Assembly: GCA_031257835.1 (NCBI GenBank)
Contig: JAIRNY010000020.1
Span: 1 to 64,000 of the forward strand
Length of the DNA stretch: 64,000 bases
DNA from: Candidatus Endomicrobiellum cryptotermitis
Lineage (GTDB): Bacteria; Elusimicrobiota; Endomicrobiia; Endomicrobiales; Endomicrobiaceae
Direction of reading: 5' to 3'
The notes beneath the pieces are model-generated. The model saw nothing but the letters and a program-made list of their open reading frames with translations. It did not search any database and had not been told where the DNA came from. A program made the position numbers and the translations under genes. This document shows, piece by piece, positions 1 to 60,534 of this stretch (within the stretch, counting starts at the first letter, position 1; each line of letters begins with the position of its first letter).

Positions 1-313
1 AACTAGCAAAATGATAAGACAAGCAAGAGTTAACTGTATTTAGCTTCAAACAATGAATAAGGTCTGTCTAAAAACCTTAGCGCATATCCTTGCAATTATA
101 GGCATTAGGGTTTTTTAGACAGACCCCTTTTGCAATATTAAATGTTTATTGCTCATAGAACGCTCTTTAAGCTAACTCCGATAAGATATACTAAACTAGA
201 CCAACTTTGATTTGTTTTAAAAATAATGGCCTATCAAACAACAAATTACTACAACTTACTTGTTATATTACCAAATTTATCACCTAAAACTATTTCTAAA
301 TGACTCTTTTTTG
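1..313. repeat. Gene-free region with a diverged interspersed repeat
   Basis: No convincing gene. Apart from the MITE-like element at 61-126, bases around 10-25 (ATGATAAGACAA) and 137-210 (TTAAATGTTTATTGCTCAT, then alternating matches) resemble 47138-47230. In the second place the two blocks lie next to each other; here they are separated by the MITE-like element and some extra bases. The minus strand of both carries a short broken frame resembling YLKER.MSNKHL, possibly the start of a dead transposase, but the family cannot be named. The region lies downstream of tadC. Confidence 0.45.
61..126. mobile_element. Short MITE-like element, internally deleted copy
   Basis: A 66-bp element bounded by near-perfect terminal inverted repeats (GGTCTGTCTAAAAACC at the left, its complement at the right). 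The same termini and subterminal bases (CTTAGCGCATATCCTT on one side, ATTATAGG.ATTAGGG on the other) bound the 160-bp element at 59267-59426, in inverted orientation; this copy lacks the middle of the longer one. No reading frame is inside. It interrupts a second repeat that is continuous near 47.14-47.23 kb, which supports insertion as a unit. Clear target-site duplications are not visible. Confidence 0.7.
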
Positions 314-57965: not shown

Positions 57966-57998
57966 ACCAAAATAAATAAACGTACGGTGGAGCTAATT

Positions 57999-59264
57999 AT
58001 GGAAAACAATCAAGAAAAACAAATAGTGTTTTTAAAAGCTAAAGCTGCCAAAGAAGCTTCAAAAAAGCTTGCCACAATGAGTGCTGAACAAAAAAATAAC
58101 ATACTCTCAGCTATGGCTTGTGCTATAGAAAAAAACATTAAAGAAATCCTGTTCCACAACGAGATAGATGTACAAGCCGCTAAGGAAGCAGGTATAAACA
58201 ATGTTTTAATAGATAGACTTACGTTAAATGAAAAACGCATAAACGAAATGGCCAAAAGTATCAAAGATATCGTACTATTACTAGATCCTGTAGGCACTAT
58301 AGTTGAAGAATTGACTGTTTCAATAGACATAGATGTAAAAAAAATAAGGGTGCCTTTAGGTGTAATAGCTATAATTTATGAAGCTCGTCCAAATGTAACT
58401 ATTGACGCTAGTGCTTTATGCCTAAAAGCTGGAAATTCTGTAATTTTAAAGGGTGGTTCTGAAGCTATAAATTCTAACACAAGTCTTATAAATATAGTAT
58501 CTGAAGCAGCTAAAAAAGCGGGTATGCCAGAAGGAGCAATACAGTTTATTGACACAACAAATAGAACTGCTGTACAAGAACTTATACATTTGGAAAATTT
58601 AATAGATTTACTAATCCCTAGGGGCAGTAATGATTTAATTCAATTCATAAAAGCTCATTCTTTGATTCCAATTTTATCACATGGAAAAGGTTTGTGTCAT
58701 ACATACATAGATGAAAGCGCAAATATAGATATGGCAATTAAAATAGCTCTAAATGCTAAATGCCAAAAACCTTCTGTATGCAATGCAACAGAAACTATTC
58801 TTGTACATAAAAATATTGCTGGGAAAATATTGCCTCAACTATGTAAACTGTACATAGAATCTGGAGTTGAAATAAAAGGTTGCTCCATAACAAAAAAAAT
58901 AGTTCCTTCTGTGAAAGAGGCTCAAGAAGAAGATTGGCAGACAGAATATCTTGACTTAAAAATATCTATAAAAGTTGTAAACTCTCTAGACGAAGCGATA
59001 GAACATATAAACAAATATGGTTCTATGCATTCTGAAGCTATAATAAGTGACAACAAAGATGCCGCAAATAAATTTATCTCCGAAGTTGATGCTGCAGCTG
59101 TTTTTGTGAATGCATCTACTAGACTTCATGATGGAGGAGTTTTAGGTTTGGGATGTGAGATTGGAATTTCTACACAAAAGCTCCATGCAAGAGGGGCTAT
59201 GGGCATTAAAGAACTAACTACTACAAAATACGTAGTGCAAGGTAAGGGAGCAATAAGAAATTAA
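57999..59264 (+). CDS. proA: Glutamate-5-semialdehyde dehydrogenase (gamma-glutamyl phosphate reductase)
   Basis: A 421-residue NADPH enzyme of proline synthesis. VPLGVIAIIYEARPNVTIDA, LKGGSEAINSN, LIPRGSNDLI, HGKGLCHTYID, the catalytic Cys in SVCNATETILVH and LGLGCEIGISTQKLHARG are present. The start ATG at 57999 is favoured over GTG 57987 because GGTGGAG lies at the right distance. proB is not adjacent. The MITE-like element follows the stop by 2 bp. Confidence 0.95.
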   Translation: MENNQEKQIVFLKAKAAKEASKKLATMSAEQKNNILSAMACAIEKNIKEILFHNEIDVQAAKEAGINNVLIDRLTLNEKRINEMAKSIKDIVLLLDPVGTIVEELTVSIDIDVKKIRVPLGVIAIIYEARPNVTIDASALCLKAGNSVILKGGSEAINSNTSLINIVSEAAKKAGMPEGAIQFIDTTNRTAVQELIHLENLIDLLIPRGSNDLIQFIKAHSLIPILSHGKGLCHTYIDESANIDMAIKIALNAKCQKPSVCNATETILVHKNIAGKILPQLCKLYIESGVEIKGCSITKKIVPSVKEAQEEDWQTEYLDLKISIKVVNSLDEAIEHINKYGSMHSEAIISDNKDAANKFISEVDAAAVFVNASTRLHDGGVLGLGCEIGISTQKLHARGAMGIKELTTTKYVVQGKGAIRN

Positions 59265-59266
59265 AT

Positions 59267-59426
59267 GGGTCTGTCTAAAAACCCTAATTCCTATAATGCT
59301 GTGAATTTTTTGGCAATGCAAGGCAAAAAACGCAGGGTTTATTGTGTGATAAACACAAGTTTTTTAACGCAACAGTGTCTAAAAAAGGCATAGTAAGGAT
59401 ATGCGCTAAGGTTTTTAGACAGACCC
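59267..59426. mobile_element. MITE-like element, 160 bp copy
   Basis: Bounded by GGGTCTGTCTAAAAACC and its exact complement at the other end (17 bp, perfect). The interior has no gene but contains short AT-rich palindromic stretches (TTTATTGTGTGATAAACAC). The subterminal sequences match the 66-bp copy at 61-126 in the opposite orientation. It fills the gap between proA and ychF, starting 2 bp after the proA stop and ending 16 bp before the ychF start, so it may now act as a terminator or RNA structure. No transposase with these ends is in the window. Confidence 0.75.
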
Positions 59427-59442
59427 GAATCTAAGGAGTTGT

Positions 59443-60534
59443 ATGAAACTTGGCATTGTAGGACTTCCAAATGTTGGTAAATCAACATTGTTTAATGCTA
59501 TAACAAAAGCTGGTGCAGAAGTTGCAAATTATCCTTTTTGTACTATAGATCCAAACGTAGGCATCGTACCTGTACCAGATAAACGATTAACTTTTTTACT
59601 AAATCTTTATAATGCAAAAAAAGTAGTATCTGCTATATTAGAATTTGTTGATATTGCAGGTCTTGTAAAAGGTGCCTCAAATGGAGAAGGGTTAGGAAAT
59701 CAATTTTTAGCACATATAAGAGAAACTGCTGCCATTATACATGTTGTAAGATGTTTTGAAAGCAAAAATGTAACACATGTTATGGGAGATGTTGATCCTT
59801 TAAGAGACACAGAAATTATAGAAACAGAACTTATTCTTGCAGACATGGATTCACTTTCTAAAAGAATTGAAAGACTTCAAAAAGAAACAAGGCTTAATGA
59901 CAAAAAAATGCTCTCAGAAAGAGAACTTGCGATAAAAGTAAAATCTCACTTAGATGCAGGTAACCCAGCAAGAACTCTTGATTTAAATGACGAAGAAAAA
60001 ATAACTATAAAAGACTTTTTCTTAATAACAGCAAAGCCTGTACTATATGTGTGTAATGTCGATGAAAGCAATTTGCCTTCTATGGAAAACAAATACACAA
60101 ACCTTGTAAAAGAAAAAGCAGAGAAAGAAGGAACTCAAGCAATTTCTATATGCGCAAAAGTAGAAGCAGAACTCTCAGAACTATCTGAAAACGATCAAGA
60201 AATTTTTTTAAAAGATTTAGGTTTACAAGAACCAGGATTAAACAGACTAATTAAAGCAGGATATAACCTTTTAGGCCTAGAAACATTTTTGACAGCAGGA
60301 CAGACACAAGTAAGAGCGTGGACAATAAAAAAAGGGTTTTTGGCACCTCAAGCTGCTGGCGTAATACACTCTGATTTTGAAAGAGGTTTTATTCGCGCAG
60401 AAGTAATGAGTTTTAACGATTTATTTAGACTCGGCAGTCAAAAAGCTGTAAAAGATGCTGGTCTCCTTAAAAGCGAAGGAAAAGAATATGTTGTTAAAGA
60501 TGGCGATATTATAGAATTTCGTTTTAATGTCTAA
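59443..60534 (+). CDS. ychF: Redox-regulated ATPase/GTPase YchF (OLA1 family)
   Basis: A 363-residue P-loop protein that binds the ribosome and hydrolyses ATP rather than GTP. GLPNVGKSTLFNAITKAGAE, NYPFCTIDPNVG, DIAGLVKGASNGEGLGNQFL, NVDES (in place of NKxD, as expected) and the C-terminal TGS domain (FLTAGQTQVRAWTIKKG, YVVKDGDIIEFRFNV) are complete. AAGGAG precedes the ATG. Confidence 0.96.
   Translation: MKLGIVGLPNVGKSTLFNAITKAGAEVANYPFCTIDPNVGIVPVPDKRLTFLLNLYNAKKVVSAILEFVDIAGLVKGASNGEGLGNQFLAHIRETAAIIHVVRCFESKNVTHVMGDVDPLRDTEIIETELILADMDSLSKRIERLQKETRLNDKKMLSERELAIKVKSHLDAGNPARTLDLNDEEKITIKDFFLITAKPVLYVCNVDESNLPSMENKYTNLVKEKAEKEGTQAISICAKVEAELSELSENDQEIFLKDLGLQEPGLNRLIKAGYNLLGLETFLTAGQTQVRAWTIKKGFLAPQAAGVIHSDFERGFIRAEVMSFNDLFRLGSQKAVKDAGLLKSEGKEYVVKDGDIIEFRFNV

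Follow-up and report, generated by a model that had tools for sequence, protein, structure and literature searches.

The 160-bp sequence between proA and ychF of this Endomicrobium genome belongs to a genuine family of miniature inverted-repeat transposable elements (MITEs), nested in a second family of palindromic repeats. Taken as a whole, the best explanation, to which we assign a probability of about 0.88, is a gene-less MITE of about 160 bp that was mobilized in trans, of which one copy became nested and then spread as a passenger, and which is now decaying. The steps are envisaged as follows. A cut-and-paste-type transposase, supplied in trans, would have recognized the 17-bp ends, GGGTCTGTCTAAAAACC, and the element would have entered A/T-rich sites with the 4-bp duplication that is seen when copies are compared. 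One copy would have landed in a larger palindromic repeat in an ancestor that this species shares with its three closest sisters. The identical position of the element in nearly all nested copies suggests that the combined unit then spread with the element as its passenger. The shared position of the copy between proA and ychF shows that it entered behind the proA stop codon at a time before those sisters diverged. Copies now lose internal sequence, some of them until a single end is left, and movement of the family here is probably over.

The element and its copies

The window, that is, the whole 64,000-nucleotide stretch of DNA that was analyzed, begins at base 1 of contig C4 of a draft assembly (genus Endomicrobium; 28 contigs, 1.05 Mb). 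The features at and around the named copy are:

59267..59426, plus strand: full-length 160-bp MITE copy in the proA-ychF interval, at the same position in sister species G023 and G017
59267..59283, plus strand: left terminal inverted repeat (TIR), GGGTCTGTCTAAAAACC, exact
59410..59426, minus strand: right TIR, the exact reverse complement of the left
59263..59266: AAAT, the target duplication on the left side (intact in G023, with AAAT on either side)
59427..59430: GAAT, the target duplication on the right side, which has decayed in this genome (3/4 bases matching)
57987..59264, plus strand: proA, glutamate-5-semialdehyde dehydrogenase (TIGR00407, NF001221), its stop codon just upstream of the element
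59443..60534, plus strand: ychF, redox-regulated ATPase (TIGR00092), directly downstream of the element

The TIRs of the named copy agree at 17 of 17 bp, and the element is too short to encode a transposase. Matches to the TIR with at most 3 mismatches number 4 in the window, as compared with 0.25 expected from shuffles. The best named relatives of the neighboring YchF, from Endomicrobium sp. and other Endomicrobia, are 78–72% identical in a search from which records of this genome itself may be missing.

A genome search with the TIR, which the earlier note had proposed, places the family at no fewer than 14 loci here and also finds it in four sister species. The 13-mer GTCTGTCTAAAAA occurs 17 times genome-wide, against once for the same pattern read backwards. 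In this genome there are eight full-length copies (159–171 bp), three shortened copies (105–141 bp), and one further form truncated where contigs C8 and C27 end; every end that matches the 16-mer with no more than one mismatch lies within one of the short family copies. The sister species yield 19 (G031), 22 (G017), 14 (G020), and 5 (G023) matches. In the rest of the genus, a few species have single diverged copies and most have none, and other families give only marginal matches. A scan of viral contigs for the element returned one match, a chance one inside a coding sequence.

Most full copies measure 149–188 bp, and the TIRs are conserved across 36 copies. In G020, about 15 copies stand alone, with unrelated flanks. 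Three further genomes (G033, G013, and G010) carry other elements of 128–145 bp that have the same ends and different interiors. Column 7 of alignment A1 and its partner, column 214, vary between G/C and C/G (GTCTGTCT or GTCTCTCT), and in about half of the copies the two ends carry matching variants, perhaps through conversion between ends. G020 also has, at loci L351–L353, L357, L359, L361, L362, and L368, many partnerless single ends, GGTCTGTCTAAAAA, far above the reversed-pattern control; these are probably remnants of deleted copies.

The element is strongly self-complementary. Its DNA fold has z = −7.2, the single strand has z of about −7 relative to shuffles, and the predicted fold has the two element ends forming a closing stem. 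This folding, the intergenic setting, and a terminator-like site on the minus strand at 59267–59284 are what a structured non-coding RNA gene, or an intergenic regulatory hairpin such as a terminator or an mRNA-stability element, would lead one to expect. Against such an origin, Rfam has no match for the element and covariation in the 36 copies is almost nil (covariation term −0.01; double changes in 3 of 26 pairs). Moreover, presence at a given locus is not conserved, internally deleted copies are tolerated, and target duplications are present. These alignments give no support for a structural RNA role, and we consider an RNA or hairpin origin quite improbable; the element may nonetheless have been put to regulatory use later.

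Target duplications and orthologous loci

The test for target duplications, also proposed earlier, placed the element ends by a fixed rule, each one base beyond GGTC...GACC, so as to avoid the bias that hand-picked boundaries could bring. In G020, perfect flanking 4-mers accompany 8 of 16 TIR pairs, with 1.4 expected in permuted pairs (p = 1e-4). Over all genomes the count is 10 of 34 (1.1 expected, p < 1e-4), in a set where a few short or doubtful pairs and some orthologous ones cause dilution or slight bias; the test on G020 alone is not affected by orthology. Neighboring duplication lengths fit worse than 4 bp, and lengths of 2 and 6 give no signal. Neither a TA duplication, as in the IS630 type, nor one of 5 bp, as in the Tn3 type, fits as well as 4 bp. 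The duplication is therefore present and of fixed length, and, since it begins exactly where the 160 bp had been delimited on first reading, those boundaries are exact. The duplicated target sites of stand-alone copies are A/T-rich.

At proA-ychF, the insertion lies at the identical base in this genome (flanked by AAAT and GAAT), in G023 (AAAT and AAAT), and in G017. The shared position shows that the insertion is an old one, made before the three closest sisters diverged. Insertion-free homologous sites, to which the earlier note had attached weight, do exist. The interval lacks the element in the outgroup G004 and in G031, where it reads AGAAGTTAGGAG. The absence in G031 is a loss, since the ychF tree places this species inside the element-bearing clade with 95/95 support. 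In G020 the interval reads AAATTAAAAGGGTAAATCTAAG, which could be a small remnant of the element.

The other stand-alone copy of this genome, at C20:49152–49312, has a duplication that matches at only 1 of 4 bases. At the corresponding site, G031, G023, and G017 have ATAATGGGT(C/T)TGTTTAAAAAGGA, a single 15-bp end. The single-end remnants at these sites and in G020 make decay by deletion the visible process, and recent transposition is not shown. No species-unique insertion by the core's own ends is proven in this genome (the core being the 160-bp element as it sits within the larger repeat), and the family is probably inactive here.

Nesting in a larger repeat and the search for a mobilizer

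Features that belong to the larger repeat in the window are:

1..202, minus strand: larger palindromic repeat carrying a short copy of the element, truncated on its right by the contig start and with its left end, TCTAGTTTAG..., at about 190–202
60..126, minus strand: short copy of the element (67 bp), which has lost its interior and lies within the larger repeat; the same deletion form opens contigs C25, C20, and C12
47049..47220, minus strand: another example of the larger repeat, shortened internally and lacking the 160-bp core

The short copy (66/67 bp) was correctly described in the earlier note as having kept both subterminal ends and lost its center. What remains is 34 bases from one end plus 33 from the other; about 94 bases in the middle are gone. 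Its ends, at 60–76 and 110–126 on the minus strand, have one mismatch each, and direct reading of the sequence bears out near-perfect TIRs of 16–17 bp in both it and the 160-bp copy. The opposite orientation of the two copies, about 59 kb apart, is likewise as reported. What is not supported is insertion of the short copy by its own ends; like most copies in this genome, it is carried inside the larger palindromic repeat, a setting that was not visible to the author of the earlier note.

Contig C4 thus begins inside a larger repeat, and the starts of C4, C25, C20, and C12 all carry the 67-bp form. C25 is joined to C20 by synteny with contig C50 of G017. It follows that the 67-bp form occupies two loci and that C4 joins C12 by elimination.

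The larger repeat is an imperfect palindrome with inverted ends of its own, TCTAGTTTAGAATCTTATC..., and has 47 matches in the genome, with about 30 further places beyond the one at 1..202 of the window. It often lacks the core (CAAATTAGCATTG), and in core-less repeats the insertion point matches the opposite arm. Apart from the stand-alone copies, almost every copy in this genome, like almost every copy in G031, G017, and G023, is bordered on both sides by the same sequences, which belong to the larger repeat. The simplest reading is a single insertion of the core followed by spread of the composite unit. No clean duplication is seen around the insertion into the larger repeat.

This single position would also be expected if the 160-bp unit were merely the center of one larger palindromic repeat, the latter being the real mobile or recombining unit and the stand-alone copies its fragments. 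The fragment reading is largely refuted by the stand-alone copies of G020, whose flanks are unrelated and whose 4-bp duplications lie exactly at the edges of the 160 bp. In addition, the flanks of the proA-ychF copy are unique in three species, and the larger repeat is intact without the core, its two arms matching across the insertion point. A fragment origin is accordingly judged improbable, and a MITE nested in a separate repeat is preferred.

Individual nested loci differ between species. The locus C2:12648 is filled here, empty in G017, and partly deleted in G023, and the core and the whole repeat are both absent from G031. At three orthologous junctions (G000:C4:90918–91047, C21:10662–10795, and C13:51246–51409, where G000 is the present genome, versus L332, L334, and L373 of G017), the larger repeat is inverted, and the core is found in only one of the two species. 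It is conceivable, because the terminal repeats of the larger repeat give homology on both sides, that the larger repeat is an exchangeable cassette, a resident copy being swapped for another in either orientation, with or without the 160-bp element. We offer this as a tentative and rather doubtful suggestion. If it were true, the MITE would have spread by recombination instead of transposition.

The original proposal of a non-autonomous element moved by an end-recognizing transposase holds in its first part. Copies, duplications, and empty sites give good support for a small gene-less element with exactly these ends, whereas a transposase with these ends was not found. Among the matches listed for this genome and the sister drafts, with ends paired at 0.5–3 kb, there is neither a longer element nor an insertion sequence with the same ends, for which the earlier note had suggested a search; drafts under-represent, and lose, multi-copy insertion sequences. 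The DDE families DDE_Tnp_1, DDE_Tnp_1_2, and DDE_Tnp_1_6 (PF01609, PF13586, and PF13751), representing an IS5/IS1182-type partner, have no match in this genome. Matches to DDE_Tnp_1 in G004, G020, G013, and G033 have no pair of these ends nearby. The single DDE_Tnp_1_6 match, L390, shares its contig and reading frame with L308, which was checked. In a survey of Endomicrobia from 2024, more than half of the genomes were reported to have transposons (PMC11257099), so the source may have been lost or left unassembled. An 808-bp segment with the same ends, G010:C4:21222–22029 (L303), was set aside; it is also bounded by a long exact inverted repeat of the flanking gene end (rplQ-like) and looks like an assembly fold-back.

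One segment does place a transposase gene between two copies of the ends. In G017:C29:15149–16506 (L264:1350–2707), 1.36 kb contain an IS110-type gene (PF02371, E = 2e-14), which would make this IS110-family insertion sequence the autonomous partner to which the ends belong. The reading frame is broken, and the IS110 element is enclosed by the two halves of a 160-bp core as well as by the two arms of the larger repeat; it therefore inserted into a core. IS110 elements are generally without such TIRs and often target palindromic repeats (PMC1525189). The nested arrangement refutes the partnership, to which we give next to no credence. An IS110 element inside a core within the larger palindromic repeat fits the known target preference of that family. 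The locus comprises three nested mobile units, IS110 in the core in the larger repeat.

Relation to known elements and significance

Correia, RUP, and ERIC elements are similar in being intergenic elements of 100–160 bp with TIRs, mobilized in trans or decayed. Correia and RUP differ in having a TA duplication (IS630 type) and another end sequence, whereas the Endomicrobium element duplicates 4 bp. MITEAba12 of Acinetobacter (PMC6382973) is also short and non-coding, with near-perfect TIRs of 16–17 bp, many copies, and A/T-rich target duplications. In contrast to the present family, hosted by the genus Endomicrobium of the Elusimicrobiota, MITEAba12 is accompanied by a resident insertion sequence that has identical ends, and it makes 9-bp duplications; for the Endomicrobium element, with its 4 bp, such a partner was not found. 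The nested repeats are also reminiscent of REP sequences, palindromic repeats struck by an IS110-family element (PMC1525189). However, REPs are 20–40 bp long and tied to REP-associated tyrosine transposases, whereas the Endomicrobium element is 160 bp long with TIRs and target duplications, and only one IS110 case is seen.

A literature search found no paper mentioning Endomicrobi- alongside 'miniature inverted-repeat', so the family appears to be undescribed in the literature covered, although bacterial MITEs as a kind are known. A text search with the end sequence gave nothing relevant.

Repeats of this kind break draft assemblies, so that the family itself allows two contig joins to be deduced, C25 to C20 and, by elimination, C4 to C12. 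They also shape the decay and rearrangement of small symbiont genomes, and this family offers relatively dated events of insertion, decay, and loss across sister species.
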